Assembly: GCA_016935665.1 (NCBI GenBank)
Contig: JAFGQN010000014.1
Location: 1 to 42,888 of the forward strand
Source of the DNA: Deltaproteobacteria bacterium
Lineage (GTDB): Bacteria; Myxococcota_A; Polyangia; JAAYKL01
Direction: 5' to 3'
Length of the DNA stretch: 42,888 bases
Shown: piece by piece, positions 17,647-41,230 of the stretch
Position numbering within the stretch: position 1 is the first letter of the stretch
Layout: every line of letters starts with the position of its first letter
Position numbers and translations under genes: made by a program
The notes under the pieces: generated by a model
What the model was told of the DNA's origin: nothing
Seen by the model: only the letters and a program-made list of their open reading frames with translations
Database searches by the model: none

Positions 17647-19245
17647 ATGGAAAGAACAGAGAAACTGTATATGGTTCTGTACCTTTTGTCCCTGCTATTA
17701 ATGCTGGGGACAGTGGGGTGCGGTGGAAGCGATGATGCAACCGATGACAATAGCAGCGACGGTCAGGACGACTCCAACGGCGACGATGACGACGACGATG
17801 ATGACGACGATGACGATGACGATGATGATGATGATGACGACGACGACGATGATGACGACGATGACGATGATGATGACGATGATGATGACGATGACGACGA
17901 TGATGATGATGATGACGATGACGATGACGACACCGAAACCACCGGCGTTGTTGGCGATTATACAGTAAGCGCCGGCGGGTACTGGTCATCGGGGCCGGTT
18001 CACGGATACGCCTGGACCTCCGCCGTTATTGAGGGTAGCACGATTGAACCCGAAGATTATGCCGATTTGGCTGAAGGCGAAGACTTGTGCGCCAAAGGTG
18101 TTGTTGCGCCGGATGCCGATTACGGCGGTGTGGGCCTTTTGGGAATGAACGTGAATCAGGAAGAGGGCGAAGAAACCGCTATTGAAACGTTTATTCCATC
18201 CGGCGAAGGTCTTTATGTAAACATTTCCAATCCTGGCGGATCCACAGTACGGGTTCAGATTCAGGGCCCCAACGGCGAGGATGATCCGGACGACAGATGG
18301 TGTGCCGCAGTAAACAAAACGGGCGGTGTGCTGATTCCCTGGGAAAAATTCAATACCGAGTGCTGGAATGATAAAGGAAATACATACAATTTCGAAAAAA
18401 TTACGGCCATTATTATGCTGGTTCCAGGAAGCAATACAACAGAAGTTGAATTCGATTTGTGCGTCCATGATTTGTCAGTGGACGGCGAAGCCAGCTCTGG
18501 CGATGACGATGACGACGATGACGACGACGATGATGATGAAATTGAATATACCGGAATGGGAACGCTGATAAATGGAGATTCCTCCACCGATGTAACCCGC
18601 AATGGTAAGAATTACGCCGTGCAGAGCAACACCTGGGGCGACAACGACGCGACACAGAAAGTGACCTACGAAGGCACATCCTTTGTTGTGGTTGAGCAGA
18701 CCGGAGACAACGGTGCCGATGGCGCTCCGGTGTCTTATCCGTCTGCATTTATTGGCTCTAACTTTGGCCGGGAGGTCGAGGGAGACAACCTTCCCATTCT
18801 GGTCAGTGAAATCGAGAGCGTGGAGACCGGCTGGATTTGGGACGATGGCGGGGCAAGTGGCCAGTACAACGCAGCATATGACGTATGGTTCAGCGAAACC
18901 GCTGCTGGTGATGAGGGTAATCCATCCGGTGGCTGGCTGATGGTGTGGCTCTATGATCCGGATCAGAAGCAGCCTCGTGGCAAAAAAATAGCGTCCGGTG
19001 TAACTGTGGCCGGCATTGATGGCTCTTGGGATGTGTGGGCCGACGAAACATGCATTAGTTACGTATCCACTTCAAAACTTTCCAGCATGGAATTTGACCT
19101 GAATCTGTTCATTCAGGATGCCACCGGCGTTAATACCGGAGTAATTTCAGATGATATGTATTTGACCAATGTTTTCGCCGGGTTTGAAATCTGGAGCGGT
19201 GGAATAGGTCTTACGTCCGTGGATTTCTATGCAGAAGTGAAATAG
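17647..19245 (+). CDS. Lipoprotein with poly-Asp tract, carbohydrate-binding-like domain and GH12-like domain lacking its nucleophile
   Basis: 532 residues. The lipobox is GTVGC (Cys25). After a polar segment come 50 consecutive Asp (17782-17931). Residues about 98-280 form a beta-rich domain with GYWSSGPVHGYAWT, LCAKG, RWCAAVNKTGGVLIPWEKF and CW, reminiscent of carbohydrate-binding domains on secreted glycanases. A second run of 12 Asp (18502-18537) links to residues about 298-532, which align by eye with glycoside hydrolase family 12: SYPSAFIG, QYNAAYDVWFS, QPRG, DMYLTNVFAGFEIWSGG. GH12 needs two Glu. The acid/base is kept (E514), but the nucleophile position in the usual TEIMIW motif reads GWLMVW (W430). 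It is therefore probably a surface glycan-binding protein rather than an enzyme. GGAAG precedes the ATG. Confidence 0.85.
   Translation: MERTEKLYMVLYLLSLLLMLGTVGCGGSDDATDDNSSDGQDDSNGDDDDDDDDDDDDDDDDDDDDDDDDDDDDDDDDDDDDDDDDDDDDDDDDDDTETTGVVGDYTVSAGGYWSSGPVHGYAWTSAVIEGSTIEPEDYADLAEGEDLCAKGVVAPDADYGGVGLLGMNVNQEEGEETAIETFIPSGEGLYVNISNPGGSTVRVQIQGPNGEDDPDDRWCAAVNKTGGVLIPWEKFNTECWNDKGNTYNFEKITAIIMLVPGSNTTEVEFDLCVHDLSVDGEASSGDDDDDDDDDDDDEIEYTGMGTLINGDSSTDVTRNGKNYAVQSNTWGDNDATQKVTYEGTSFVVVEQTGDNGADGAPVSYPSAFIGSNFGREVEGDNLPILVSEIESVETGWIWDDGGASGQYNAAYDVWFSETAAGDEGNPSGGWLMVWLYDPDQKQPRGKKIASGVTVAGIDGSWDVWADETCISYVSTSKLSSMEFDLNLFIQDATGVNTGVISDDMYLTNVFAGFEIWSGGIGLTSVDFYAEVK
17782..17931 (+). repeat. Imperfect GAC/GAT repeat coding for 50 Asp
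   Basis: Fifty Asp codons in a row with an irregular mix of GAC and GAT. A 30-base unit at 17788-17817 recurs exactly at 17839-17868, so the tract has grown at least partly by internal duplication rather than only by single-codon slippage. Confidence 0.9.
18502..18537 (+). repeat. Second GAC/GAT tract coding for 12 Asp
   Basis: Twelve consecutive Asp codons separate the carbohydrate-binding-like domain from the GH12-like domain, acting as an acidic interdomain linker. Confidence 0.85.
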
Positions 19246-20633: not shown

Positions 20634-20711
20634 TGTGTGTGGTGTTCCCGAGACCATCCGAAAGGGATGTGTGGTGTTGATTTTCCCTCAAAAAAGACTG
20701 AAAGTGGTTCT

Positions 20712-22778
20712 ATGGAAAAATTCACATTGAAAACGAACGTTCTTGAGGAAGGCAAAAAGGCGCCCGATAAAGACGCGGATTCGTTGCGAAACGAAAACCA
20801 GAATTTGCGAAACCAGGTCCGATTGCTGATGGCGGCAGAGTCTAAACTGTACACATTGCAGGAGCATTTAAATCAGCAGCAGCAGATATACGCCAAGCTG
20901 GCGGAATTGGGAAGAAAGCTGAACACGCTTTTGAACGTGGACGAGATTTGCAAAATTCTGGTGAACTTTGTTGTATACGAATTGAATTTTGAGCGGTGTG
21001 TAGTGTTGCTGGAGAGCAAGCGGCCCGGTGAGGCCGGCAAACTGCGCGTGAATTCGTGCGAAGGTTATTACGATGATGCGGAAATGGATGCCGTGATGAA
21101 TGCGGAGTTCCAGGTGGAATCGCCGGTGCTCGCGGAGTTGGGAGATGAGGGGACCCATCTTTGCGTCAAGGAAGATCACTCGTGTGATAAGTGTGCCATT
21201 ATCCGGGAGGTTTTTTTTCTGGACGAGTTTTTCCTGTTTCCGCTTACCCGAAAAGAGGAGGGGATTTCCGGCTGCATACTTGTGGGCAATTCAAAGCGTC
21301 AGGCGCGGTATCAAACACGGGTCGATTCGGGCGATGACACCCTGGTACCCCTCACCAGTCTGGTGCGTCAGGCCAGCATCACGCTGGCCAATGTGAATTC
21401 CTATAACGCCCTTGAAGACGAACGGGCACGGCTGGATATAATGGTGGCGGAGCGAACCCAGGAGTTGTCCCGCGCATTGGATTCAGCCAATGAAGCGGTG
21501 CGACTGAAAGGGGAATTTCTGGCAAAAATGTCCCATGAGTTGAGAACGCCGCTCAATTCGATTGTGAATGTCCCGGCAGCGCTGGCCGCAGATTATCGGG
21601 AAGTGGATGTCTATGTGTGCAGTGGGTGTAGCGCTGAATTTCAATCGGACACTGATGAATCAGAGACGCCCTGCCCCGAGTGTGGCGAGAAATTGGAACG
21701 ACAGATGATGACCATATGTGAGGGCGATCCCGCAGAGCATTTGAGCTTTTTAAATCTGGTGAAGCAACAGGGAACCCATCTGCTGAGTCTCGTGGAGGAT
21801 GTGCTCAATTTCTCTAAGATGGAAAGTGGTAAAATTACATTGAACTATGAAGCGGTGGGATTGTATCACCTGCTCGGTGAGGTGGAACAGACCATGCGAC
21901 TTTCAATTCGCGACAGCGCGCGTTGTATCCGTTATTTCAGGCCGGAACACGACGTGGAACTGGTGGTGGATGAAACCAAGCTAAAGCAGGTGCTGATTAA
22001 CCTTATTAATAATGCGGTAAAATTTACGCGCCATGGGGGCGAGATAGATGTTCACGCCACATTGTCAGGAGGAATTGATCCCCATGTGCGCTTTCAGGTG
22101 CGGGACGACGGAATTGGTATCCCTTACAATCAACAGGAAATTATTTTTGAGAGTTTCAGGCAGGTGGATGGCTCCAGTACACGGGTTCACGGCGGTACCG
22201 GTTTGGGACTGTCGATTGCCAGGCAATTGGTAGACCTTCACGGTGGCCAGATTTCCGTGCAAAGCGAATTGGGGAAAGGCAGTCGGTTTATTTTTGATAT
22301 TCCACTTCATCCCGCACAGCGGTTTCCGTCCAAAGCGCCGCTCCCCCCAAAGCCGGAAGATTTAAAGGATGAACTGGCAGAAATCGATTGTCCGGTGAAA
22401 GGCAGTGGAACGGTTGTGGTGGTGGACAACGATTCCAGTTTACTGGCCGTGGCCAGAAAAATCCTGCAGCGCGAAGGTTACACTGTGATATGCGTCCAGG
22501 ATCCGACGGAAGCCGTGGCAGTGGTTCATCGGGAACAACCGAAAATACTGATTCTCGACGTACAGATGCCAGGAATGGATGGGTTTGCCGTGTACGAAGA
22601 GTTTCGTAAATCAAAAGCACTTCGGGAAATGGTAGTGTTGTTTTCAACAGGTGATGAGAGCGAAAAGGAGAAAGTGTTGTCTCTTGGTGAAGTATGGCTC
22701 GGCAAGCCCTGGAATACGGGTATTATGACGGCAGAGGCCCTTGAGCGCTATTGCGAAGACCGAAGGTTTCGGATATAA
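20712..22778 (+). CDS. Hybrid histidine kinase with GAF, zinc-ribbon-like insert and C-terminal receiver
   Basis: 688 residues from the ATG at 20712. An open frame from 20637 has no better site. Order: coiled coil (about 20-70), GAF-like sensor (75-235) with a CxxC in HSCDKCAII, linker helix, and HisKA with phospho-His 275 in MSHELRTPL. Between the two HisKA helices sit about 48 extra residues with Cys303-x2-Cys306 and Cys321-x2-Cys324 (YVCSGC, then PCPECG), a zinc-ribbon or rubredoxin-knuckle pattern. Then follow HATPase_c ([28 protein letters not shown]) and a receiver with phospho-Asp 616 in LILDVQMPG. It is cytoplasmic and probably receives its signal from the FIST protein. Phosphate may pass to the separate receiver encoded next. 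Confidence 0.93.
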
Positions 22779-23387: not shown

Positions 23388-23480
23388 CATTTTGTATCCG
23401 GTGGGTAAAATAATTGGAAGTTTGGCCGTTAGTAGCTCTGTGACCGAAACGACCTGAACATTGCCCAGGGGGATGCATTT

Positions 23481-24338
23481 ATGAAAACGGCCTTTATTGC
23501 AGAGGTGTCCAGCAACCACCGGCAGAATCTGGATAGATGTCTGGATTTTATTGACGTTAGCGCTCAGATTGGCTGTGATGCTGTTAAATTTCAGTTGTTT
23601 AAACTGGATGAGCTATTTGCTCCGGAAATTGTTTCCCGCAGCGAAAATCACGCGCGTCGGCGTCAGTGGGAGTTACCAGTGGCGTTTTTACCGCGTCTGA
23701 GGGACCATTGTGATGCCCGCCAGATTCGCCTTGGTTGCACGCCCTTTTATCTGGCAGCGGTGGATGCGCTCGTGCCCTATGTGGATTTTTTAAAGATTTC
23801 GTCTTACGAAATCCTGTGGCAGGAACTTCTGGCGAAATGCGCGCAATCGGGTAAGCCCATCATCCTCTCCACCGGTATGGCCACCATGGCGGAAGTGAGT
23901 GAGGCAGTGGGGATAATAAAAGAAAACGGCTGCACAGACCTCACTGTGTTGCAATGTGTATCGGCATATCCCACACCCGTGAATGAATGCAATCTCAATG
24001 TGATAGATGCATATCGTCGCCATTTTGCAGTTAAAGCGGGCTGGTCGGATCATAGTGTGTCGCCGTCGGTGATGTATCGCGCCGCTTTCGAATTGCATGC
24101 CGATGTCATTGAATTTCATCTGGACCTGGATGGGGATGGCGCAGAATACGCAGCGGGACACTGTTGGCTGCCCCACGAAATTGCATTGGTGATTCGAACG
24201 ATAAAGGAAGGATATGCGGCGGGGGGCGATGGAGAAAAACGACCGGTATCGTCGGAGCTTTCAGACAGGGATTGGCGGGCGGACCCGACGGATGGGCTTC
24301 GTCCATTTAAGTTTATGAGAAAGGACTGGCAGCCTTGA
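23481..24338 (+). CDS. NeuB-family (nonulosonate) synthase without SAF domain
   Basis: 285 residues, a single TIM-barrel domain. Family enzymes condense phosphoenolpyruvate with an aldose to make sialic, legionaminic or pseudaminic acid. Motifs: EVSSNHRQNLDRCLDFI, K36 and Q38 in AVKFQLF, KISSYEI, STGMATMAEV, LQCVSAYPTP, metal His191 in GWSDHS, and His213 in IEFHLD. Most relatives read EKH here and carry a further SAF domain of about 60 residues that covers the partner active site. Both differences are notable. It is therefore a divergent synthase whose substrate may not be a standard ManNAc-type sugar. GGGGG precedes the ATG. The stop overlaps the next start (TTGA). Confidence 0.85.
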   Translation: MKTAFIAEVSSNHRQNLDRCLDFIDVSAQIGCDAVKFQLFKLDELFAPEIVSRSENHARRRQWELPVAFLPRLRDHCDARQIRLGCTPFYLAAVDALVPYVDFLKISSYEILWQELLAKCAQSGKPIILSTGMATMAEVSEAVGIIKENGCTDLTVLQCVSAYPTPVNECNLNVIDAYRRHFAVKAGWSDHSVSPSVMYRAAFELHADVIEFHLDLDGDGAEYAAGHCWLPHEIALVIRTIKEGYAAGGDGEKRPVSSELSDRDWRADPTDGLRPFKFMRKDWQP

Positions 24339-26125
24339 AAACGCCCCTGTTGGCCATTGTTCAGGCGCGCATGGGCTCCACGCGACTGCCTGGAAAATCC
24401 TTAAAACCGATTTGTGGAAAACCGTTGATTTTTCATGTGGTGGAGCGTCTGGAACTGAGTCGTCGCATTACCGATATTGTGGTGGCCACCAGCGAATCAG
24501 AAAAAGACACCCCATTGGCACATGCCCTTGATGCCGCGGGTGTTGGAGTGGTGCGGGGCAGTGAACATAACGTCCTTTTGCGATTTGCAAAGGCCGCCAA
24601 CGGATACACCGGGAACTATCTGGTGCGAGTGACCGGTGATGCACCGTTCGTGGACGCAATGGCCATCGATCGAATGGTGGACACTCTGGCAGAGGCAAAC
24701 GTCGATTTCTTTGACCTGGCGCCGGGGGTGGCGCCCATTCACGAAGGGTTTGAAGTGTTTAGCCGCAGCGCGTTTGAAAGACTGTTGCAGCTGGCGGGTA
24801 CCGATGCGGTGGCGATGGAACATGTGACGGGGTATTTTAAACTGCATCCGGAGTTTGTATCGCGTGTAGTCATCAATGTCCCTGAATCAGAACAGTTTGC
24901 GGGGGCGCGCATGTCTGTGGATACCCCCGCGGACATAGTGTTTGTGGAGACTGTGTATCAGCGATTGGGTTGTCACGTTCCGTATGCGAACGTGACCGAC
25001 ATTGTGTCTCTGTTGCGCGCGGAACCTGCGTTGCTAAGGCTTAATCAGCATGTGCGGCAAAAGGCGCTGACCCACAAAGCGCTCCGCGTGGCGTTTATTT
25101 GCGAGAGTGGTGGCGTCGTCGGCTATGGTCATTTATCCCGGATACTGGCGCTGGCGGAGGTGTTGCGAGATGCGTTTTCGTGCGCCAATCGAATATACGT
25201 GATGGGTGACCAGGACAGTGTGAACAGGGTGCATATAAGAGGCCTTTGGGCGATGGGTATCGACGACCATTACTGGGACAAAGGCTGGTTGGACGAGGCG
25301 CCGGATGTGGCGGTGATTGATGTGCTGAATCGACTGACGCCTCAAACGCTGATGGGGTTTGAACAGATGGGCATACAGACCGTGTTGATAGACGACGGCA
25401 GCGATCGCCGTTTGGTGGCGGACATGGTGTGTTACGCGGCTGTTCCCCAGGTGGATGACATGAACTGGGAACGCTTCAGCGGCCAGATGCTTCGGGGATT
25501 CGAGTACGCCATTGTGGACCCTGTCTATATCGCGCCACCAAAGAGAACGCCGCAGGATATGTTGCGGTTGCTGGTATCCATGGGGGGCAGCGATCCGGCC
25601 GATTTTACCCAATTGTCTCTTCGCGCACTGAGCCTGTTACAATCACCTGTGTCCCTGCATGTCACGGTGGTGATTGGACCGGGATGCAAACGACGCAGGG
25701 AAATCGAAACGGCGGCCAACGCTCTGTCGGCGACAGTATCGCTGGTGATTGCACCTGAAAACCTGCGTGATCTAATGGAAGCATCCGACATGGCCATGGT
25801 GTCGTTTGGGGTCACTGCGTATGAAGCGGCGGCGATGGAGTTGCCGGCCGTATATTTGTGTCTGAGTGATGACCACGCAAAAAGTGCATCGCCTTTTGTT
25901 GACGCGGGTGTGGCGACAGTGGGCGGCGTGTATCCCGCTGCAATGGATGCTGCCCGATTAAGTGAGGCCATTGAAACCATGATGGTTCACTGCAGGGAGA
26001 TGTACACCAGCGGTGGCGTGCCGTTGCGCATTGCCGAAAAAATCCGTCAGGGCACGATGCGTGTCGCCGAAGAGATAATGCAACTGAAGAAAGTGCCGAC
26101 GACCACGATGGCAGGCGGGCAATGA
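24335..26125 (+). CDS. Fused CMP-sugar cytidylyltransferase (SpsF-like) and PseG/SpsG-like hydrolase
   Basis: 596 residues from a TTG overlapping the upstream stop. Residues 1-240 form a nucleotidyltransferase: QARMGSTRLPGKSL, VVATSESEKDTPLA, RVTGDAPFVD, MSVDTPAD. Residues about 252-590 resemble the PseG UDP-sugar hydrolase, a GT-B-like fold: GYGHLSRILALAEVL with the likely catalytic His266, LIDDGSDR, LVSMGGSDP and SFGVTAYEAAAMELP. PseG releases UDP from a UDP-linked sugar before the NeuB-type step, and the first domain would charge the product with CMP. Fusing the two brackets the synthase encoded just before. No C-terminal acetyltransferase is present. Confidence 0.88.
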   Translation: MKTPLLAIVQARMGSTRLPGKSLKPICGKPLIFHVVERLELSRRITDIVVATSESEKDTPLAHALDAAGVGVVRGSEHNVLLRFAKAANGYTGNYLVRVTGDAPFVDAMAIDRMVDTLAEANVDFFDLAPGVAPIHEGFEVFSRSAFERLLQLAGTDAVAMEHVTGYFKLHPEFVSRVVINVPESEQFAGARMSVDTPADIVFVETVYQRLGCHVPYANVTDIVSLLRAEPALLRLNQHVRQKALTHKALRVAFICESGGVVGYGHLSRILALAEVLRDAFSCANRIYVMGDQDSVNRVHIRGLWAMGIDDHYWDKGWLDEAPDVAVIDVLNRLTPQTLMGFEQMGIQTVLIDDGSDRRLVADMVCYAAVPQVDDMNWERFSGQMLRGFEYAIVDPVYIAPPKRTPQDMLRLLVSMGGSDPADFTQLSLRALSLLQSPVSLHVTVVIGPGCKRRREIETAANALSATVSLVIAPENLRDLMEASDMAMVSFGVTAYEAAAMELPAVYLCLSDDHAKSASPFVDAGVATVGGVYPAAMDAARLSEAIETMMVHCREMYTSGGVPLRIAEKIRQGTMRVAEEIMQLKKVPTTTMAGGQ

Positions 26126-26126
26126 A

Positions 26127-27359
26127 ATGGATGGAGGTATGCAAAAAAGAACCATTCTGTTTGTGGCGGGCAGCATTGAAACAGTGCCGGCGGTGAAACT
26201 GGCCAATGAGATGGGACTGCACACGGTGGTCAGCGATGGCAATCCCAATGCCGCCTGTTTCGATATTGCCGATGACCGCATTGTGGCCGATACCTACAAC
26301 GTGTCGCAATCGCTGCAACAGGCGATGGCGTATCACCGGACAGTGCGTCCCATTGATGGCGTTATTTGCGTGGCGTCGGATGTCCCGCTCACCGTGGCCA
26401 CTATTGCACAGGCACTGGGGTTGCAGGGTATTTCGGTTACTGCCGCCAAACTGGCGTCTGATAAATTGGCCATGAAGGAACGGTTTGTGCGGGACGGCGT
26501 GCGGGTGCCCTGGTTTACGCAGGTACATTCTGCCGCGTCGCTAAAAGAGGTGGTGGCGCAAAAAGAAATACTGTTGATTATTAAACCGGTGGACAGCAGG
26601 GGAGCCCGAGGGGTGATCCGTCTTCTACGGAACGTGGATTTGGATTGGGCGTATCAACAGGCCCGCGCCCATTCTCCTACAGGGCGCGTGATGGTGGAGG
26701 AATTCATTGAGGGACCGCAGGTCAGTACGGAAACACTCATGCTGAATGGATGGGCACATACGCCGGGGTTCTCGGACAGAAACTATTCACTCCTGGAGAA
26801 ATACGCCCCGTTCGTGATTGAGGATGGGGGCGATCTTCCCAGCAATTTGCCGGCTGAGGTGCAGGACAAAATACGAACACTTGTTCAAAAAGCAGCCATC
26901 AGCATGGGGGTGGTGCACGGTGTGGTCAAAGGCGATATTGTGGTTCGCGATGGTGAACCAATGGTAATTGAACTGGCGGCCCGCTTAAGCGGCGGTTATT
27001 TTTGCACCCACGAAATTCCCATGAATACAGGCGTCGATTTACTGGGCGCAGCGATTCGTGTGGCCCTTAATGAAGTTGTGGCGCCCGAAGAGTTGACGCC
27101 TCGTTTTATGAAGTGCATTTCGCAACGATATCTGTTTCCAAAGGAGGGAAGGGTGGTGGCCATTGAGGGGGTGGCAAGTGTCTCGAAGCGACCTGGAATG
27201 GAGTTCGTTGAAATTAAAGTGAAACCTGGAGACATTATCGGAAAAATGGAGAGTCATCCGGCGCGGGCGGGTCTGGTCATTGCCAGTGGCGACACACGGG
27301 CACAGGCAATGGAAAGAGCGGCTCAAGCGGTACAAGACATTGTGGTGAAGGTGGAATGA
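26127..27359 (+). CDS. ATP-grasp ligase
   Basis: 410 residues. An N-terminal Rossmann-like pre-domain (TILFVAGSIETVPAVKLANE) is followed by ATP-grasp motifs: LIIKPVDSRGARGV, EEFIEGPQVSTETLM and VIELAARLSGGYFCTHEIP with the Mg-binding Glu/Asn-type region. A C-terminal beta domain follows. Such enzymes couple ATP to carboxylate-amine or carboxylate-thiol bond formation. Directly after nonulosonate genes it could ligate an amino acid to the acidic sugar or its precursor (inference). It starts one base after the preceding stop. An internal ATG four codons later sits too close to its GGAGG to be favoured. Confidence 0.88.
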   Translation: MDGGMQKRTILFVAGSIETVPAVKLANEMGLHTVVSDGNPNAACFDIADDRIVADTYNVSQSLQQAMAYHRTVRPIDGVICVASDVPLTVATIAQALGLQGISVTAAKLASDKLAMKERFVRDGVRVPWFTQVHSAASLKEVVAQKEILLIIKPVDSRGARGVIRLLRNVDLDWAYQQARAHSPTGRVMVEEFIEGPQVSTETLMLNGWAHTPGFSDRNYSLLEKYAPFVIEDGGDLPSNLPAEVQDKIRTLVQKAAISMGVVHGVVKGDIVVRDGEPMVIELAARLSGGYFCTHEIPMNTGVDLLGAAIRVALNEVVAPEELTPRFMKCISQRYLFPKEGRVVAIEGVASVSKRPGMEFVEIKVKPGDIIGKMESHPARAGLVIASGDTRAQAMERAAQAVQDIVVKVE

Positions 27360-29342
27360 ATGCTAAAGTTGTACTCTCTTTTTCATCTCAATCTGCTGTA
27401 TTCATCCATTGAAGTGGTAGAGCGTCCGGCTGTAGTGGCGCGATGCTACTGGCCCCTGTTGAAGCTGGCGCATGCGGGGGTTCCCATTGCAGTGGAGGCC
27501 AGTGGGATGACGTTGCAGTTGATTCAGAATGCGGATGGGGAATTTGTAGCCGAATTGAAGCGACTGATAAAAGTGGGAAAAATTGACTTTGTGGGAAGTG
27601 GTTATACACAGCTGATTGGTCCGTTGGTACCGTGGCAGGTGAACGTGTGGAATCAGCACCATGGGATGGCGCTGTATGAACAGATGCTTGAGGCGCGCCC
27701 CAAAATCGCACTGGTAAATGAAATGGCATATTCGGCTGGACTGGTGAGGCATTATCTCGAAGCGGGATACGCCGCGTTGGTGATGGACTGGAACAATCCC
27801 AGAAAGTATCATCCGGAGTGGCCCCATGAACAGCAGTATCGACTGGCAAAGGTGGAAACACGGGATGGAAATCTCAAGCTTATCTGGAGCAATTTTGTTT
27901 CTTTCCAAAAGTTTCAGCGCGTGGTGCATGAGGAATTGAGTGATACGGCATACCTTTCGTGGCTTATGTCTCATCGCTCAGCGGATGAGCGACTTTTTTC
28001 ACTGTACAGCGGCGATGTGGAAGTATTTGATTACAGACCCGGTCGATACGCCACCGAAGCGCCTCCGAATGTGGGCAGCGAGTGGAAGAATATTGATGCC
28101 GTATACCAAAAGTTGCAGCAGGAGGACGGCATTCAACTGATACGGTTGAGCGACGTGTTACAGGAGCAGGGAGATGTGGCAACAGCGCCATTGCAGTTGG
28201 AATCACCGGCACAGCCAATTCCTGTGAAGAAACAGGAAAAATACAACATCATCCGGTGGGCGCTAACGGGCAGAGATGACCAGAAGATAAATACGGCATG
28301 TTATCGATATTTCCATTCCATCAAAGACAGCGATGACGTCGAGCAGCAGCGAAACGCATGTTATTTATGGTCCAGCGACTTTCGAACGCACATTACCGAT
28401 GCCAGATGGCGGGAATATTCAAATCAAATCAAAAAGGCCGAAGGCTTGCATCACGGGCGCGCACGAATAGAAATTTCTTTAGAAAACGGGGGAAGGGAAG
28501 TTTTGGCACACCCCGTTGAACTGCCATATGTTACATCGACGCTCACTGTGATTCAGAAAGGCAATGACCTTGTTGTGAAATCGCCGGCATTGTTGCTGCG
28601 CTTGAATCTGCGCCGTGGCCTCGCTATCTCGGAACTGCGGTTTTTAAATGTCTGCGATGCACCGTTGCTTGGAACATTACCTCATGGCTATTACGAGGAC
28701 ATTTCGTTTGCAGCGGATTTCTATACCGGTCACACCGTAATAGAGCGTCCGGCAGAGCATAAGCAAACAGATTTGGCACCTTGTCTGCCAACGGTATCCT
28801 TATCTTCAGACGCGGTCGATTTTTACTTTGAAAACAATATGGATGGATTCACATCACAAAAACGCATTTGTGTGTCTTTGACTGACAGCACTGTAATTCT
28901 GGATAATCGACTTCACTTGCCCAAAAGAAGTGCGGCATTGATACGTCCCATGCATGTGACGTTTTTTCCGGAATCATTTAACCGCAAAAAGTTGTTTTAT
29001 GCCACTCACAACGGCGGTCAGGCATTCGAGAAATATGCATTGCAGCAAAGCGAAGTCCATCATTCGGAACCCGTGTCTCCCCTGATTTCTGCCAAACATG
29101 GTCTGGGGGCAACAGAAGGTCTGGTAGTGGTGGGCGATGACCGTGTGCAGGTGCGTTGCGAGCACGACAATACCGTGGGATACGTCATTCCCGCAATCAA
29201 GTACACGCCTGTGGATGGCGACAGGTTTTTTTTAAGACTGCAGTACTCGGCGCAGGAGCTGGATGAAACATTCAGAGAAAGCGACATGCCTCAAAAAATT
29301 CATACCCGGTATAGATTGAGTGCAGCAAAGGAAAAAAAGTGA
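27360..29342 (+). CDS. GH57-fold protein (glycoside hydrolase family 57-like)
   Basis: 660 residues. The N-terminal 290 resemble the GH57 barrel: LLKLAHAGVPIAVEASGMTL, GKIDFVGSGYTQLIGPLVP, the Glu-containing LVNEMAYSAGLVRHYLEAGY, and YSGDVEVFDYRPGRYATE. The C-terminal half is beta-rich, as in many GH57-type alpha-glucan or mannosyl enzymes. No signal peptide is present, so it acts in the cytoplasm, odd for a degradative hydrolase and better fitting a transferase or biosynthetic step. It begins directly after the ATP-grasp stop. The substrate cannot be told, and a catalytic Asp in the second motif is not certain. Confidence 0.75.
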   Translation: MLKLYSLFHLNLLYSSIEVVERPAVVARCYWPLLKLAHAGVPIAVEASGMTLQLIQNADGEFVAELKRLIKVGKIDFVGSGYTQLIGPLVPWQVNVWNQHHGMALYEQMLEARPKIALVNEMAYSAGLVRHYLEAGYAALVMDWNNPRKYHPEWPHEQQYRLAKVETRDGNLKLIWSNFVSFQKFQRVVHEELSDTAYLSWLMSHRSADERLFSLYSGDVEVFDYRPGRYATEAPPNVGSEWKNIDAVYQKLQQEDGIQLIRLSDVLQEQGDVATAPLQLESPAQPIPVKKQEKYNIIRWALTGRDDQKINTACYRYFHSIKDSDDVEQQRNACYLWSSDFRTHITDARWREYSNQIKKAEGLHHGRARIEISLENGGREVLAHPVELPYVTSTLTVIQKGNDLVVKSPALLLRLNLRRGLAISELRFLNVCDAPLLGTLPHGYYEDISFAADFYTGHTVIERPAEHKQTDLAPCLPTVSLSSDAVDFYFENNMDGFTSQKRICVSLTDSTVILDNRLHLPKRSAALIRPMHVTFFPESFNRKKLFYATHNGGQAFEKYALQQSEVHHSEPVSPLISAKHGLGATEGLVVVGDDRVQVRCEHDNTVGYVIPAIKYTPVDGDRFFLRLQYSAQELDETFRESDMPQKIHTRYRLSAAKEKK

Positions 29343-29346
29343 CGCC

Positions 29347-30789
29347 ATGACACGTATATCGCCCAGGGTGTTGTTTCTCGGTATTGATGCGATGATGCCG
29401 GAGGTGGTGTTTGACAATCTGCATCGGTTTGCCAATATCCGAAGGCTGTGTGCCACGGGTGCCAGCTGCTCGTACGATGCCTATACCTATGGGTACGGTT
29501 CAAGAGACAACTGGTTGAGCATATACACTGGACTGACGCCAAAGCAGCACGGTTGCAAAAACAATATTATGACGGCAACTGGAAAAGTGCCGACAAGCAG
29601 AGACTACGCCCAAAGCCGTCCCTTTTGGACGGTATTGAATGACTTTCAGACGTCTGTGGGAATGTGGCGGGGAATCATCACATCGCCGCCGGCCGATGTA
29701 GATGGGTACATGTTATGTGCGGAGCCCAAAACACTGCCTGGAATGAACAGGCCCACGCACATTTCTTTGAATACCACGCCAGCCAAACGGGAGATACTCA
29801 CGCTGATTGAAGGAGAACTGCGAAGGCCGCCATTGCCGGAAACACTGGCACAGTTTGGCCTGGACTGGGAAACATTCAAAGATAACGTGCAGAAATACGA
29901 GTACATTATTTCTGATGATTTCTTTGAAGAGGGTGTCACTTACTTCAAACAGGAAACCGAGTACTTCACCGAAAACATGATTCGTATGCAAAAAGCGCAT
30001 CCACAGGATGTCTTGTTTTATTACACTTCCATTATGGATTTGGTGCAGCATTTTCAGGTTCACGAGCAAAGTCTGGAGCGAATCAAACGGTGTGTGGATG
30101 CGGTGGACGCAGCCATTGGTCGATTTATTGATGAGATTGCACCGGACAATATCATTTTACTCTCCGACCACGGTACTGAATCGTTCGGCTCGCTTTTTCC
30201 GGGCATGCCAGTCGAAGTGCAGCGGGAAGCATTTGGCATGCGCGACAAGGCAGTCTGGCTGAGCGATGGCAACATTGCCGTGCATGCCGCCAACGGATCA
30301 TTTCTGATGGGGGCTCACGCCCTTAAAGGCTTTTGCCTGATTCATGGCAAATCGGTGCGTCAAACCCAAATTCAGCATATGCGCACCGTGGACTTCTATC
30401 CCACCTTCCTTGAGCTTTTGGGCATTCCAGTGCCAGAAGGGCGAGAAGGATTTGTTTTGGATATTTTTGAAAAACCGCTGATAAATGTGTCCCGACTGAT
30501 TCATGTGCCCCCATTTGAAGAAATCGCCATTATCCAAACCAACGAAGTGGCCAGGGAAGGAGACACCATAAATGCCGTTTTTTTGGAAAACCGTTTTGCC
30601 CACATTACGGTGTTTGGCCAGGAAAAGTACCGCAACGCCTTTTTGAAAAACGGCCGTGTATCCAGGTTTGAGCCAGTGATCGACGCCGTTGTTCCCATGG
30701 AAAAACTACTGGCATTTGACAAAGTGATGGTGGGCAATCCCAATCCGTTTGACGCAGAACATCCATATGTGGAGATTGATTTGAAGTAG
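29347..30789 (+). CDS. Alkaline-phosphatase-superfamily phosphodiesterase/phosphatase
   Basis: 480 residues from the ATG at 29347. A GTG at 29320 would overlap the previous gene. Superfamily metal motifs: D14 in LFLGIDAMMPE, the loop RDNWLSIYTGLTPKQHG with the probable Ser/Thr nucleophile, FYYTSIMDLVQHF, D274-H275 in LLSDHGTESF, and a further His in FLMGAHALKG. The fold is that of type I phosphodiesterases/nucleotide pyrophosphatases and sulfatases, so the leaving group could be phosphate, nucleotide or sulfate. No signal peptide is present. Last gene of the five-gene cassette, four bases after the GH57-like gene. Confidence 0.82.
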   Translation: MTRISPRVLFLGIDAMMPEVVFDNLHRFANIRRLCATGASCSYDAYTYGYGSRDNWLSIYTGLTPKQHGCKNNIMTATGKVPTSRDYAQSRPFWTVLNDFQTSVGMWRGIITSPPADVDGYMLCAEPKTLPGMNRPTHISLNTTPAKREILTLIEGELRRPPLPETLAQFGLDWETFKDNVQKYEYIISDDFFEEGVTYFKQETEYFTENMIRMQKAHPQDVLFYYTSIMDLVQHFQVHEQSLERIKRCVDAVDAAIGRFIDEIAPDNIILLSDHGTESFGSLFPGMPVEVQREAFGMRDKAVWLSDGNIAVHAANGSFLMGAHALKGFCLIHGKSVRQTQIQHMRTVDFYPTFLELLGIPVPEGREGFVLDIFEKPLINVSRLIHVPPFEEIAIIQTNEVAREGDTINAVFLENRFAHITVFGQEKYRNAFLKNGRVSRFEPVIDAVVPMEKLLAFDKVMVGNPNPFDAEHPYVEIDLK

Positions 30790-31636: not shown

Positions 31637-31999
31637 CTTCACTCCTGATGTTTACGTGAGCCGCTGAAAACTCAGCGATTCCAACCGGCTCTATGAAGTA
31701 TGTCGGTTGGGGATTTTCAAAGTTTAGGAGGAATTTTGGAGTTTCTGTCAATTGACAGGTCGGGTTATGGGGGGAATAGAATTTTTTGGAATCCCATTTT
31801 ATGGGATGTGTTTGTTACAAATCGTCTCAATACGCAGGAAATGATCAGGCCCGGCGACCAGAAAAAGAATACGCTGTTGGGGATTCGTCACGATTTAATT
31901 TCTTTTGAACTTGACCGTTTGAATAAGAAAGAAAACGCAATTCAAAAGTTTTGAGTGCTTCATCGAAATTGGCGCAGTCTTAGACCCACGGAGATGTGG
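31637..31999. other. Divergent intergenic region, no gene supported
   Basis: It separates the - strand methyltransferase gene from the + strand sulfotransferase-like gene and presumably holds both promoters. An 84-codon open frame (31700-31954) has no ribosome-binding site and no recognisable similarity. Base composition turns clearly A+T rich from about here onward. Confidence 0.4.
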
Positions 32000-33424
32000 A
32001 TGGGTAAAAAAAGAAAAGTGATTTTGCATATTGGAATGCCAAAAACCGGAAGCTCCAGCATTCAAAGTATTTTGTACCGTTCCGCAAATTTCTTAAGGCA
32101 ACATGACGTTTACTATTCGACGTTATTGCATCATTGTAATCAAACGTTTTTTCCCATATTTGCCAAAAACACCCAAATGATACAACGCGCGCAAAAGGCG
32201 TGGTGGGGTGACATAATTGATATCGACAATATGGAGAGGAGATGGACAACGGAACTCGAAAAGTCTGACGGAACGAACTTTATCATTTCATCGGAGCTGC
32301 TATATCAGCCAAATTCAAGCACAGATGTTGAGAAATTGCACTCATTTCTCAAACGGTGGTTCGATGAATTTCTGGTTATCGCATACATAAGAGACCCAGC
32401 CAGCTACATTGTGAGCGTCAGCATACAGCAACTTAAAGCCGGCTTTTGTTACGATAGGTTGGCATTTGACATTTATGCGGCGATTAAGCTGAACAAAAAA
32501 ATCATTCTGCCGGGAATGTACAATTCGCTTGATGAATGGGAGCGGGTATTTGGCAGAGAAACGTTATGCGTTCGCCGATTCCGTCCGAATACTGCAAATG
32601 CCAATGATTTGATATCTGATTTCTTTGACGCAGCGGGATTATCATTTTTAAGACCACAGGAATTGGGTACAGTAAGAGACAATGAAGCTCTGGGTAAAAA
32701 TGGTATCCAACTGCTTGGGAATCTGAATAAACGCTATCCCATGTTGGACGTGCACAACCGTCCGAATTCCCTTAGAGGAAGGGAGAATTGGGAAATGCTG
32801 AAGCTGATTTCGAGAATTCCTGACGAAAAGTTCTGTGTCGACGTGGCGTGGTCAGGAATTGAAATAGGACTGGCGAATGAACAAATACGATTTATAAACA
32901 AATATCTGGCACCCGATGATCAGTTGCAGGAAATCCATGTGCCATTGGAATGTAGCCAGAAAACACGTGCCAATACCATATCGTCTGAATTTGTGACCGA
33001 CCTGGTTAACGAATATAACATTGAACTCCAAAATCGTACCCAAAATAAGTCTCAGAATTTTGCAGGTTATTACAACCTTCTATTGAAGTGGATGCGGGGA
33101 AATCTGAATGGACATAAGATATATGACAAACTGCTGGAAAAAGGACTTTGTCGAGTTTGCATTTATGGTTGGGGCAAAATTGGGGAGCTGTTTTACTATG
33201 AATGCAGAGAGTGCCCCGATATTGATGTTGTATTTGTCATCGACGAAAAAGACAGTATCGCGGCCCCTGTGAAGATTTACACTCCGAATGCGCTTCATTT
33301 GGATCTTGTTGATAGTGTGGATACTGTTGTTGTTACGCCGATATATGATTTGTTTCGTATTGAAAAAAAAATGAATGAACACGGTTTTACACGATTGTTA
33401 TCGATAGAGGATTTAGCATGGTAA
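32000..33424 (+). CDS. Sulfotransferase-like protein with C-terminal Rossmann-like module
   Basis: 474 residues from the ATG at 32000, six bases after GGAG. The N-terminal P-loop LHIGMPKTGSSSIQSIL is the 5'-phosphosulfate-binding loop of PAPS sulfotransferases. YIRDPASYIVSV matches the 3'-phosphate site, and SSELLYQP fits the family. Residues about 380-474 form a separate alpha/beta unit beginning VCIYGWGKIGELFY and ending in strands such as VDTVVVTPIYD, a module also seen at the end of the two GT2 proteins that follow. The likely job is sulfation of a glycan in the cytoplasm. Acceptor unknown. Confidence 0.82.
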   Translation: MGKKRKVILHIGMPKTGSSSIQSILYRSANFLRQHDVYYSTLLHHCNQTFFPIFAKNTQMIQRAQKAWWGDIIDIDNMERRWTTELEKSDGTNFIISSELLYQPNSSTDVEKLHSFLKRWFDEFLVIAYIRDPASYIVSVSIQQLKAGFCYDRLAFDIYAAIKLNKKIILPGMYNSLDEWERVFGRETLCVRRFRPNTANANDLISDFFDAAGLSFLRPQELGTVRDNEALGKNGIQLLGNLNKRYPMLDVHNRPNSLRGRENWEMLKLISRIPDEKFCVDVAWSGIEIGLANEQIRFINKYLAPDDQLQEIHVPLECSQKTRANTISSEFVTDLVNEYNIELQNRTQNKSQNFAGYYNLLLKWMRGNLNGHKIYDKLLEKGLCRVCIYGWGKIGELFYYECRECPDIDVVFVIDEKDSIAAPVKIYTPNALHLDLVDSVDTVVVTPIYDLFRIEKKMNEHGFTRLLSIEDLAW

Positions 33425-33446
33425 AAAAACACAACAGGAATTCAAA

Positions 33447-33614
33447 ATGAGGTCAATCAGGACATATATCATTAATCTGCCGAAAAATGAAAAATGCAGA
33501 AAGCATATGGATGCTTTGTGTAAAAAATATCAATTGGATTTTCAACGCGATAGTACAATTTGGGGTTGTCGACACATGATTCCTATCGTTAGCTGCTGCG
33601 TTGTTGATGTCTGA
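33447..33614 (+). pseudogene. Remnant of a GT25-family glycosyltransferase
   Basis: A 55-codon frame with a proper site (AGGA, seven bases before the ATG). It starts RTYIINLPKNEKCRKHMDAL, the typical N-terminus of GT25 (LPS biosynthesis) glycosyltransferases, followed by KKYQLDFQ. After about 36 residues the similarity stops and a TGA follows, whereas GT25 enzymes are about 250 residues. The next 140 bases stay open in the frame of the following gene and contain coding-like sequence (KLVPPHRLLKILCYKAIQ), perhaps the 3' end of the same broken gene. A deletion remnant is the best reading. Confidence 0.6.
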
Positions 33615-33757
33615 TTTTGTTGTGTTCGCAACCACGTGCGGAATATGTAAAATTAGTACCACCTCATAGATTACTAAAAATCTTGTGCTATAAAGCTATA
33701 CAAATTGAAAAATCATCCAGAAACGAAACGGACAAACTTTCAAAATCAGGAGGAATA

Positions 33758-35104
33758 ATGGTTCTTCCTCTCGTGACAATAATTATTCCCTGTTACCAGC
33801 AGTCACAATATCTGGAAGAAGCCTTTCGTTCCATAGAGTGTCAGCGATTCCCTTCGCTCGAAGTGATTGTAGTGGATGATGGTTCAACCCCTCCTGTGTC
33901 ACTGCCCGAAGGCATTTGGTCGTTTGAATTAAGACTTATCAGGCAAAACAATCTGGGACTATCTTCGGCCAGAAATACCGGGATACTTCACGCAAACGGA
34001 AAACTGATAAAGTTTCTTGATGCAGATGATATTCTGCTCGAAGGATGTTTACATCGCCAGACTGCAAATATAGATGCACATGGTACAGCAATAGGCATTA
34101 TTGGTTTTGAAATTCGCGACCATGTGAACCAGTTAACCAAAGAGGTTATCCCTCATTTTGGAGAGCATATTGGGGCATTTTCATTAATCAACATAGCACC
34201 AATTCACAGTTATATTTTTCCTTATCATCTGTTGCACAAAGTTGGTGGCTTCTCAACCGAAAAAAGAGTAAGTGGTGGGTACGAAGATTATGACCTTCTA
34301 CTTCGTTTGTGCATAGAGGGAATAGATGTCATAACTGTGCACTGTCTTGGTGTTGCGTACAATTTGCGACACGGAACCATGTCCACCGAATCAAAAAAAA
34401 TGGAACATGCGCGGATACAGGTATGGACTCACTTCGTACACATTTTCTTGAACCAAAATTCATCTGTAAGGTTAACGATTCTAATGTCAATACTGACCCA
34501 GGTGGCGTTTCTACTTGAAAACACGTCTGTCAGTGAAACGCCCCCATTGATAAAGTTGTTTCCGTTAATTGCGAAACACTTGGAACAACAAATTGACACA
34601 TTGGATTCGAATGAAATTATGTTACTCAAAATCCGGTTGCAAAAATTTCCCTGTGCAAAGATGCTTACAGGCGTATTGAATACCAGGAAACACGATGGGC
34701 ATCGTTCTTCCATCTCTGTTTCGAGCCAGGACATTATCGATTATCGTACGGTTCTTGGGAACGTCAACGCGCGATTTGATGACCAATGGCTTATACAACT
34801 GTTCTCGATTGTAAAGAAACATTGCGAACATTTTGCGATTTATGGCGCAGGCAAAATTGGAAGGCGTATAGCGGCAATTTTACAGTCCGCTGGTTTTTAT
34901 CCGAAATATTTTTTTGACAAAAATGCGGAAAACCTCAGGATAATGGAGAATGACTGCAGGTCTTCGCAAGACTCGATTACCATTAAAAATGTTGATGAGA
35001 TCGCCAGCTCCGATGTTCATCTTCTGGTGATTGGATCGGTATTTTATTATGAACAAATAGTCGCTATATTGAAACAGGAACATCCGGGAATGGAACTATT
35101 TTGA
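33758..35104 (+). CDS. GT2 glycosyltransferase with C-terminal Rossmann-like module
   Basis: 448 residues from the ATG at 33758, which follows AGGAGG. The frame is open further upstream, but without family similarity. GT-A features: VTIIIPCYQQSQYLEEAF, VIVVDDGST, LGLSSARNTGI and metal-binding D88-A-D90 in KFLDADD. VSGGYEDYDLLLRL is the acceptor-side motif. The last 95 residues start AIYGAGKIGRRIAAIL and continue with YFFDKNAENL, like the unit ending the neighbouring proteins. It probably adds one sugar to a surface glycan from a nucleotide-sugar donor. Cytoplasmic or membrane-associated. Confidence 0.88.
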   Translation: MVLPLVTIIIPCYQQSQYLEEAFRSIECQRFPSLEVIVVDDGSTPPVSLPEGIWSFELRLIRQNNLGLSSARNTGILHANGKLIKFLDADDILLEGCLHRQTANIDAHGTAIGIIGFEIRDHVNQLTKEVIPHFGEHIGAFSLINIAPIHSYIFPYHLLHKVGGFSTEKRVSGGYEDYDLLLRLCIEGIDVITVHCLGVAYNLRHGTMSTESKKMEHARIQVWTHFVHIFLNQNSSVRLTILMSILTQVAFLLENTSVSETPPLIKLFPLIAKHLEQQIDTLDSNEIMLLKIRLQKFPCAKMLTGVLNTRKHDGHRSSISVSSQDIIDYRTVLGNVNARFDDQWLIQLFSIVKKHCEHFAIYGAGKIGRRIAAILQSAGFYPKYFFDKNAENLRIMENDCRSSQDSITIKNVDEIASSDVHLLVIGSVFYYEQIVAILKQEHPGMELF

Positions 35105-35148
35105 AATTGTGATTCACCCGATACCGGTGTTATAACGGGAGGCATCTT

Positions 35149-36219
35149 TTGGGGAATACGATTGTTTCTGTAGTCATTACGACACGTAATCGCTCATCTC
35201 TTCTTGTACGAAGCATCAATTCGGTTAGAACTCAAATTTATCCTCATCTTGAAATCATAGTAGTAGATGACGCTTCCTCTGACAATACAGCTGAAGTGAT
35301 GCAATCATTGCTGCAATTGGACCATCGAATCATATACATCAAAAATGACGTCTGCCTGGGTGCAAATGCATCACGGAACAAGGGGATATTGAGTGCAAGA
35401 GGTGACTTTGTCGCGGGATTGGATGACGATGATGAATTTCTGCCGAACAGAATAGAGATATTATTGAAGCAGTACGATCCAGAGTATGCCTTCGTTACGT
35501 CCAATAATCTTTTAGACTATGGCAGCCATCAACGGCCTACCCAAATTCCGGAGGTTGTCAAACTAAAGGACATGTTGAGGGACAATGTTCTGTGCAATCA
35601 AGCACTTGTAAGTCGTTCGCGCATTATCGAAACTGGCCTGTACGACACAAAACTCAAAGCATGCCAGGATTATGATATGTGGATGAGGCTCATTCAACGG
35701 TTTGGCAATGTTAAAGTGGTTCATAACATCACGCAAGTTATTCATATGTCGAACGACAGCAATCGCATTTCGACGCATTCAAAAACAAAATTTAGCGGGT
35801 ATTTTAATTTTTATCGTAAATATAAACATTTGATGGATGAGAAAATCAGACGGCTGCATTTGTTTCGAATATACGATATTCGCAGTTCGCAGGAAGGTGT
35901 TAATCAACTGCCCAGAAAATTCCTTTTCAAACAGATTGACAATCTAAAGCCCGGTAGCCTCTGTATTTTCGGAACTGGAGAATTTATGAGAAGCATCTAT
36001 GGTGGACTGCGTTCGCGAAATATAGAGATAAAACTGTTTGTCGATTCAAATCCCAAAGTTCAATATTTGTTTGACATTCCTGTTGTCACACCCGATGAAG
36101 CCCTGGAAGCGGGAGAAACCTGTTTCTTGATTGCATCCGTTGAATACTGCAAAGAGATGATAGACACGTTGCAGCACCTTGCGGATGTTAAGAATAGATC
36201 TATATGTATCGTTGCATAA
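35149..36219 (+). CDS. GT2 glycosyltransferase with C-terminal Rossmann-like module
   Basis: 356 residues from a TTG at 35149, six bases after GGGAGG. No ATG is available near the conserved start. GT-A features: VSVVITTRNRSSLLVRSI, IIVVDDASSDNT, LGANASRNKGI, metal site LDDDDEF (D92-D94) and LKACQDYDMWMRL. Residues about 265-356 form the extra module: SLCIFGTGEFMRSIYGGL, LFVDSNPKVQ, FLIASVEYCKEM. The glycine pattern here is G-T-G-E rather than G-x-G-x-I-G, so the module may have diverged. Same operon direction as its neighbours. Confidence 0.87.
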   Translation: MGNTIVSVVITTRNRSSLLVRSINSVRTQIYPHLEIIVVDDASSDNTAEVMQSLLQLDHRIIYIKNDVCLGANASRNKGILSARGDFVAGLDDDDEFLPNRIEILLKQYDPEYAFVTSNNLLDYGSHQRPTQIPEVVKLKDMLRDNVLCNQALVSRSRIIETGLYDTKLKACQDYDMWMRLIQRFGNVKVVHNITQVIHMSNDSNRISTHSKTKFSGYFNFYRKYKHLMDEKIRRLHLFRIYDIRSSQEGVNQLPRKFLFKQIDNLKPGSLCIFGTGEFMRSIYGGLRSRNIEIKLFVDSNPKVQYLFDIPVVTPDEALEAGETCFLIASVEYCKEMIDTLQHLADVKNRSICIVA

Positions 36220-36271
36220 GCATAATTAAAAACATGCTTGCATCCGTTTCGTCAAGAAGAACAGTGAACGA

Positions 36272-38158
36272 ATGACAAATGTCGACAATACCAAATCCTT
36301 TAAGGAAAATCTTCTGGATACAGCGAATATCCTGTACCAGCAGGAACGCTATTGGGACGCACTTGACTCGTACATCCAATTCGCGCGCCAGTTTGGTATT
36401 GACGCAGTTCACACCCGGATCGCTGAATGCATAAATTGCGTCAATATCTCCGGTGAAATCCAACCGCGACATCTGGATTCTGTGACCACCATAATGTTGC
36501 ATAACGCTGGCACCCTGTACGCAGATACACATACAATTGAACGAGCGCGGAGTGATTGTTTGACGCTCGTTCGATCCGGTTCACATCCCCTTTCAACCAG
36601 GAAACTGGAAACTGGCAACACGTTTTCACCTGAAAATTCGCCTCGATCGACAAATGATTTTTACTGGTATGAAGCGTATTTTGACAAGTCTCGCAACACC
36701 AACACCAGCACCCACAATGTCATCGGCATCAGTGTTGTCATCCCCACTTACAATCGGCCCAATATACTCGGAATTACACTGGCGTGTCTCGCTCATCAAA
36801 AAACAATGCACCCTTTTGAAGTCATTGTGGCTGATGACGGGAGTTCGGTGGATATACTTGAAACAGTCAGGCATTTCGAGAACGTACTGGACATCAAATA
36901 TGTTCGGCAGCCGGACGATGGCTATCGACTCTGCGCAGTGAGAAATCTGGGAATCCGTACGGCAAAACATCCCTTTGTCGGAATACTGGATTGCGACATG
37001 GCCCCTTGTCGGACATGGGTTGAAGATACCGTCACTGCGCTTTCACAATGCGATGATATTGCGTTAATTGGTCCACGGAAATATGTGGACACATCTTTGG
37101 TATCCGCTAACGATGTACTTGAAAATCCAGATTTGGTTGAAAAGTTGCCAGAGATATATTCGAATAGGCAGGAAGAAAATTCTGTTTCGAATGGCGTATC
37201 GCTGGATTGGCGCATCGACTATTTCGAAAAGTCCGAAAACCTTCGTTTTAGCAACAATCCATTTTTGTTTTTCAGCGGAGGAAACGTGGCGTTCAAAAAG
37301 CAATGGATTGATAAGGTGGGAGGGTTCGACGAAGAATTCACGCAGTGGGGCAGAGAGGACAATGAATTCGGCTATCGGCTTTATAGGGAAGGATGCTTTT
37401 TCAAAGCATTCTGGGGTGCGCTTGCTTATCATCAGGAGCCCCCTGGAAAGGAAAATGAAACCGATAGAATCGCCGGGGCTGAAATTACTGCAAAGCTATT
37501 CCTGCAAAAGGTCCCCTATTATGGCCGTTCAACACTGCCTTTGGAGAAATCAGTTGTGTACACTATCCCCCTTGTGTCTCTGGTAATTGATGTGGATATT
37601 TTCGATGATGGACTCCGACGCAGTATTGACAGTATTTTGAATCAGACTTTTTCTGACCTGGAAATTGTCATTCGAGATGACGATTCCACAATATTTACGC
37701 GGGCAGCTTTGACTTCATATTACGGTTCAAATCCACGTATTCGACGCATTAATGTGAACAAAAAACGAACGGCATTACCGACATCTCTTAGCTCCATATG
37801 CAGAGGATTCTACATCGCACAAATTGCCAGGGGAAGGATACTTCACCCTCGTGCTGTTGCGCTTTGTATCGATATGCTTAAAAAAAATAAATCCATCGCT
37901 CTTATTCATGCATCAGAAGCACTACATCACTTGATTTTAGAACGAGATATGCCATCTATCAGCAGAAGCGAGGATGTCGAATTCAATACCACTCGTGGCA
38001 AAATATCTTTTAACGTCTTTCCGTTGAGAGCGTGGAATATCGCAGCAAGAATTGCAACGGTTTATAACGCAAATATAACTTCGACCGTTCCTGATATAGT
38101 TGGACTGCGTGAGGTTGGAGAATGTCTATTTGTTAACGAAAATGAGTTTTTCGAATAA
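36272..38158 (+). CDS. Chondroitin-synthase-like (KfoC-type) double GT2 protein with degenerate second domain
   Basis: 628 residues. About 140 N-terminal residues include a TPR-like helix pair (TANILYQQERYWDALDSYIQ). The first GT domain closely follows the KfoC/chondroitin polymerase pattern: ISVVIPTYNRPN, VIVADDGSS, YVRQPDDGYRLCAVRNLGI, metal site D240-C-D242, ALIGPRKY, GGNVAFKKQWIDKVGGFDE, W359-G-R-E-D-N-E and AYHQEPPGKENETDR. The second domain begins VSLVIDVDIFDDGLRRS and keeps ILNQTFSDLEI and ICRGFYIAQ. The expected D-x-D-D is replaced by A519-R-G-R522, and later acidic motifs are missing. It probably transfers only one sugar type. The donor may be GalNAc or GlcNAc by homology. Confidence 0.85.
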   Translation: MTNVDNTKSFKENLLDTANILYQQERYWDALDSYIQFARQFGIDAVHTRIAECINCVNISGEIQPRHLDSVTTIMLHNAGTLYADTHTIERARSDCLTLVRSGSHPLSTRKLETGNTFSPENSPRSTNDFYWYEAYFDKSRNTNTSTHNVIGISVVIPTYNRPNILGITLACLAHQKTMHPFEVIVADDGSSVDILETVRHFENVLDIKYVRQPDDGYRLCAVRNLGIRTAKHPFVGILDCDMAPCRTWVEDTVTALSQCDDIALIGPRKYVDTSLVSANDVLENPDLVEKLPEIYSNRQEENSVSNGVSLDWRIDYFEKSENLRFSNNPFLFFSGGNVAFKKQWIDKVGGFDEEFTQWGREDNEFGYRLYREGCFFKAFWGALAYHQEPPGKENETDRIAGAEITAKLFLQKVPYYGRSTLPLEKSVVYTIPLVSLVIDVDIFDDGLRRSIDSILNQTFSDLEIVIRDDDSTIFTRAALTSYYGSNPRIRRINVNKKRTALPTSLSSICRGFYIAQIARGRILHPRAVALCIDMLKKNKSIALIHASEALHHLILERDMPSISRSEDVEFNTTRGKISFNVFPLRAWNIAARIATVYNANITSTVPDIVGLREVGECLFVNENEFFE

Positions 38159-38179
38159 CAATTCATAGAGGATACGGTT

Positions 38180-40598: not shown

Positions 40599-40601
40599 CC
40601 A

Positions 40602-41132: not shown

Positions 41133-41230
41133 TATGCAAAGACTAATTTCGGCTACTCAAAGGAGCATGGCGCAAATACGCCAATATATGTGTCGACTCG
41201 CAAATACCTGCGTTGAAAAGGGCGAAATAA

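Follow-up and report, generated by a model that had tools for sequence, protein, structure and literature searches.

A four-gene cassette with a SAF-less NeuB-type synthase, an ATP-grasp ligase and a GH57-fold protein as the probable core of a variant nonulosonate pathway

The question raised by this locus is which pathway would bring together a NeuB-type synthase, a cytidylyltransferase and a PseG-like hydrolase with an ATP-grasp ligase and a GH57-fold protein. An earlier note, made from the letters of the window (the whole 42,888-nucleotide stretch of DNA that was analysed), had described five tightly spaced genes of these families and had read them as one unit serving an uncharacterised CMP-activated sugar pathway. 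The host genome comprises 8.16 Mb in 249 contigs and is 95% complete.

Composition of the cassette and its recurrence across genomes

The open reading frames were verified, with five genes located within 23481-30789 on the + strand and separated by gaps of -4, +1, 0, and +4 when the ATG at 29347 is taken as the start of the fifth gene. Both this spacing and the family scans agree with the earlier description. The predicted products are a NeuB-type PEP-condensing synthase of the SfmA type without a SAF domain (23481..24338), a cytidylyltransferase fused to a PseG-like UDP-sugar hydrolase domain (24335..26125), an ATP-grasp carboxylate-amine ligase of the SfmE type with a LAL_C2 domain (26127..27359), a GH57-fold glycoside enzyme (27360..29342), and an alkaline-phosphatase-superfamily (Phosphodiest) protein (29347..30789; PF01663, 58 bits).

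The GH57-like protein was searched for in 284 genomes of the window's phylum, and an alignment of 11 such proteins was then searched against 84,980 genomes. The gene was present in 15 of the 284 phylum genomes, host included, and at least 101 relatives were recovered from the larger set, with 80 loci fetched. Locus records covered the Alpha-, Beta-, Gamma-, and Deltaproteobacteria, Verrucomicrobia, Chlorobi, Gemmatimonadetes, Actinomycetota, Nitrospirota, and others. Translated searches of the 80 loci placed an ATP-grasp gene near the GH57 gene in at least 70, a NeuB gene in at least 43, a cytidylyltransferase in at least 39, and PseG in at least 36, these counts being lower bounds because many contigs stop near the match. 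GH57 and ATP-grasp genes were co-oriented in 69 of the 71 loci holding both. Given this repeated co-occurrence, the first four genes constitute a conserved set and chance is excluded. Co-occurrence, the rarity of which would have counted against a common unit, is therefore common. The phosphatase-like gene had no relative in the 80 GH57 neighbourhoods by translated search and none in 94 by profile search, which rules it out as a fifth core member. The cassette core is genes 1-4 and the fifth gene is a local addition; the five-gene unit proposed earlier thus stands for the four members that recur together but not for the last.

Profile searches of the 94 loci also detected SDR genes in 56, SfmD-type methyltransferases in 50 (a broad family), flagellin in 48, PseC in 38, PseB in 35, Maf-like genes in 27 plus a few, a split transketolase in 27/25, FliS in 25, FliD in 23, and an IlvB-like TPP enzyme and a B12-type radical SAM protein in 16 each. 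Flagellar or Maf genes were found in the fetched flanks of 35 of the 50 loci that span 18 kb or more, a flagellin connection that the earlier note had missed. Among these 50 loci, IlvB occurred in 13, transketolase in 16, and both in none (p 0.004), although this mutual exclusivity is only a hint because the loci share descent and the test came only after the families had been explored. A deltaproteobacterial subtype (L083, L085, L087, L088, L091, L095, and L099) carries a B12-type radical SAM gene between the ATP-grasp and GH57 genes, with transaldolase and alcohol-dehydrogenase genes upstream in five of the seven loci (L085, L087, L088, L091, and L099). A distant relative of this radical SAM protein is encoded at 38247-39665 of the window.

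Additional features were observed elsewhere in the window. At 31955-36219, a sulfotransferase-like gene is followed consecutively by two GT2 glycosyltransferases, and the C-termini of these products contain look-alike Rossmann-type stretches (IYGAGKIG-like) with weak pairwise BLAST similarity (best E 0.001). A hybrid histidine kinase is encoded at 20637-22778, its HisKA domain apparently interrupted by a zinc-ribbon (PF09723, residues 326-357), and a predicted secreted protein at 17647-19245 bears two long poly-aspartate runs.

Predicted functions of the core proteins

The synthase (285 aa) matched PF03102 with 192 bits over residues 24-253, and the family scan yielded no SAF match in this protein. 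It scored 161 bits against the PseI model (cut-off 340) and was likewise far below the cut-off of the NeuB equivalog model. Identity to 29 cassette homologues was 43-60%, with K36, T87, K105, S108, S189, H191, and H213 invariant in the alignment, and the SAF-less proteins share a conserved tail (DR-W-ADP-DGLRP) at the position occupied by SAF in canonical NeuB. According to pairwise and profile alignments, the equivalents of Lys53, Thr110, Lys129, Ser213, His215, and the second metal-site His (His236) of 1xuu, the PEP/metal ligands of N. meningitidis NeuB, are invariant in the 30 cassette NeuBs. The PEP-binding residues, whose lack would have refuted the earlier reading, are thus conserved. 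The best PDB sequence match was SpsE of Bacillus subtilis (1vli), but the SpsE chain is 385 aa in length and SpsE/SpsF/SpsG are spore-coat polysaccharide enzymes, for which we know of no association with ATP-grasp or GH57 proteins. A single NeuB-family match is present in 16 of 28 cassette genomes, and most of these single matches are near the SAF-less type in size and score. Three further NeuB-family matches are present in the host (contigs C246, C58, and C242), which may therefore possess additional pathways of the nonulosonate or a related kind.

The second protein (596 aa, TTG start) matched CTP_transf_3 in its N-terminal part (117 bits, residues 7-207) and the PseG model TIGR03590 in its C-terminal part (104 bits, residues 251-516, under the cut-off of 154). 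A comparable fusion gene is found in Shewanella aquimarina (locus L119, 11929-13638). The third protein (410 aa) matched ATP-grasp_3 and LAL_C2 (75 bits). Structure prediction, the check proposed earlier for the ATP-grasp and GH57 proteins, yielded confident models with a ligase fold and a GH57 fold, respectively. The AlphaFold model of the ATP-grasp protein (pLDDT 96.2) had its top TM-score, among the matches listed, with the L-amino acid ligase BL00235 (3vot; 0.84/0.87). The fold is held in common with BL00235 and BacD and both the ATP-grasp and LAL_C2 domains are present, but identity to BL00235 is only 20%. By analogy with these enzymes, the window protein would be expected to perform carboxylate-amine ligation.

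The fourth protein (660 aa) matched GH57 (PF03065) with 38 bits. Its model (pLDDT 93.5) consists of a catalytic barrel and a C-terminal beta-sandwich that is mutarotase-like (Z about 19), and superposed on amylopullulanase 9k7c with a Z of 33.7 and an rmsd of 2.5 over 329 aligned residues. In alignment with the T. litoralis 4-alpha-glucanotransferase (1k1w), E121 and D219 correspond to E123 and D214, the nucleophile and the acid/base of that enzyme, and the pair E121/D219 is invariant in 65 of 65 GH57 homologues; the protein is accordingly predicted from its sequence to be catalytically intact. The fold and the catalytic Glu/Asp are common to 1k1w, 9k7c, and the window protein, but identity to these enzymes is about 11-14%, and the window protein has its own invariant motifs and a nonulosonate-cluster context. 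An alignment of 11 GH57-like proteins from the window's phylum contained several dozen invariant columns. Searches of open-licence literature found no described pathway of sialic-acid type containing GH57, and a conserved GH57 member of such a pathway appears to be new.

Genome-level partners and probable kinship with the Shewanella sfm operon

The absence of PseB, PseC, and PseH noted earlier holds for the window genes scanned but not for the genome, as contig C80 carries PseB (492 bits, above cut-off) adjacent to PseC (421.5 bits, cut-off 423.5). PseB above cut-off was found in 55 of the 284 phylum genomes, comprising 15 of 15 genomes with GH57 versus 40 of 269 others (Fisher 4e-12, kinship ignored), and in 26 of 28 cassette genomes. 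Profile searches for PseH yielded no match in the host genome and none above cut-off in the 28 cassette genomes. In controls, PseH was present in 2 of 284 phylum genomes, and among 103 genomes with PseB from the Shewanella order it was recognised in only 18. Its absence is weak proof that the ligase replaces PseH, since PseH is rare in controls and the significant Fisher values compare different clades.

Flagellin was detected in 24 of 25 cassette genomes tested, a count over cassette genomes only, and the host genome encodes six flagellins. The remaining genome (G314) has no detectable flagellin, so targets besides flagellin may exist. MptE-like (Maf) domains were present in 14 of 15 cassette genomes; the host carries two Maf-type proteins, one of which shows clear similarity to Maf proteins from other cassettes. 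Compared to the classical CMP-pseudaminic acid pathway (PseB-C-H-G-I-F; Campylobacter, Helicobacter), the host therefore contains PseB, PseC, PseG-like, NeuB-type, cytidylyltransferase, Maf-type, and flagellin counterparts, but has no PseH above cut-off, a SAF-less synthase, a fused cytidylyltransferase-PseG, and the additional ATP-grasp and GH57 proteins.

Literature searches combining GH57 with pseudaminic acid and flagellin, or ATP-grasp with nonulosonic acid, produced a single fitting report among open-licence papers (PMC3765264). The pathway is consequently not wholly uncharacterised, as the earlier note had held: this report describes sfmABCDE of S. oneidensis MR-1 (SO_3261-3265) as a flagellin-modification operon encoding a NeuB protein (290 aa), a TPP enzyme (581), an SDR (255), a methyltransferase (395), and an ATP-grasp protein (412) (PMC3765264). 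The fullest gene set was found in S. aquimarina L119, in the order Maf-NeuB-TPP-SDR-MT-ATP-grasp-GH57-CT/PseG-PseC-PseB-Maf (PseC 552 bits, PseB 549 bits), and its run of five genes of 290, 584, 248, 394, and 412 aa corresponds to sfmABCDE in order and length. Kinship with MR-1 is thus one of gene order and length, while the window NeuB and ATP-grasp proteins are homologous to the corresponding L119 proteins. The sfm NeuB and ATP-grasp proteins resemble those of the window (285 and 410 aa) in size, the former being of SAF-less length, and no GH57 is mentioned in the sections of the report that were consulted (PMC3765264). The TPP enzyme, SDR, and methyltransferase of the sfm type are absent beside the window cassette in this arrangement, with none in its operon according to ORF listing and family scan; neither a flagellar, TPP nor SDR gene adjoins the cassette, and glycosyl- and sulfotransferase-like genes do. 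A sigma-28-like box at 23406-23432, 48 bp upstream of the NeuB gene and similar to the sfmA box, was rejected as it ranked 12th in the window by score, and was also discounted because the host's own flagellin genes lack good boxes.

Flagellin modification in S. oneidensis requires PseB (PMC3120886). Modification is likewise lost in sfm mutants, the mass shift of sfmB, C, and D mutants equalling that of sfmA and the sfmE shift being slightly less, and deletion of sfmA abolishes the entire modification (PMC3765264). These phenotypes fit uneasily with a scheme in which SfmB-D merely make an acid for SfmE. The authors state that no clear PseH, PseG, PseI, or PseF was found, and describe a glycan with a core of mono-N-acetyl nonulosonate (274 Da, two nitrogens) and a nitrogen-free second part of 236, 250, or 264 Da (C9H16O7 to C11H20O7); this second part and the role of the ATP-grasp gene were left open there in 2013 (PMC3765264). 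The mono-acetyl, two-nitrogen core is as expected for a PseH-less route, with the second amine unacetylated.

Proposed pathway and alternative explanations

Taken together, genes 1-4 probably form the core of a variant nonulosonate pathway fed by PseB and PseC, with acylation by a ligase, a GH57 step, and flagellin as the target. In the proposed scheme, PseB and PseC, encoded elsewhere in the genome, would convert UDP-GlcNAc to a UDP-4-amino sugar, from which the PseG-like domain would strip UDP, the SAF-less NeuB would condense the free sugar with PEP, and the cytidylyltransferase domain would yield the CMP-sugar. The ATP-grasp protein may join a carboxylic acid to the free amine of the sugar, the site acetylated by PseH in the classical route, and the GH57-fold protein would be catalytically active in the cytoplasm, where it would hydrolyse or transfer a glycoside of an extra branch by a retaining mechanism. 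Maf-type transferases would then place the CMP-sugar mainly on flagellin. The genomics lend good support to the core route, which retains the earlier idea of a CMP-nonulosonate route with additional ATP-grasp and GH57 members that do not belong to the textbook pathways for sialic, legionaminic, and pseudaminic acid. The chemistry of the ligase and the GH57 protein, the order of steps, the position of the amide, and the GH57 substrate are predicted from gene content and fold. Flagellin is the likely, predicted target in the host organism, although the genes neighbouring the cassette look like surface-glycan genes.

These neighbours suggest that the host cassette could instead provide a CMP-nonulosonate that adjacent transferases build into a surface polysaccharide or glycolipid. 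The glycosyl-, sulfo-, and methyltransferase-like genes at 31955-41986 adjoin the cassette, three loci (L093, L097, and L109) have no flagellar genes in their fetched flanks, and G314 has no detectable flagellin. The near-universal flagellin of the cassette genomes, the flagellar or Maf genes near most long loci, and the flagellins and Maf-type proteins of the host itself argue against this destination, which we consider possible but rather unlikely. A more distant alternative is that the SAF-less NeuB makes not the nonulosonate core but an alpha-keto acid, which would be converted by TPP, SDR, and methyltransferase enzymes to the nitrogen-free side chain and attached by the ATP-grasp protein. 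Genes for these three enzymes accompany the cassette in other loci, and the reported 236-Da C9H16O7 has the composition of a C9 acid (C9H18O8) after loss of water, which fits a 6-deoxyhexose plus PEP followed by reduction (PMC3765264). This match is arithmetic on the published formula, however, and a glycosidic link fits equally; moreover, the genomes with a single NeuB-family match would be left with none for the core sugar, and the sfmA deletion described above removes the whole modification. On balance, this explanation appears improbable. It is more improbable still that the GH57-like protein serves housekeeping glycogen or maltodextrin metabolism and is linked by chance, as its fold and catalytic pair, found in glucan-active GH57 enzymes, might imply: the family is marked by invariant residues of its own, lies near ATP-grasp, NeuB, and PseG genes across phyla, and tracks PseB at the genome level. 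GH57 distances also correlate with NeuB distances (rho 0.60), a correlation for which common descent may account.

The preferred reading remains that of a PseB/PseC-fed variant nonulosonate pathway directed at flagellin. The link between nonulosonates and flagellin is known in outline. A broader version, in which ATP-dependent ligation replaces CoA-dependent N-acetylation, the GH57 step is essential, and the product represents a new class of flagellar glycan, is advanced only tentatively. For annotation, a starch-enzyme label is probably inappropriate for the GH57 proteins of such cassettes. The cassette ties the open questions on the Shewanella glycan to a defined set of genes that recurs in many phyla, and adds a GH57-fold enzyme to it, and it occurs in cultured organisms, including Shewanella aquimarina, Kordiimonas, Plasticicumulans, and Methylomicrobium.
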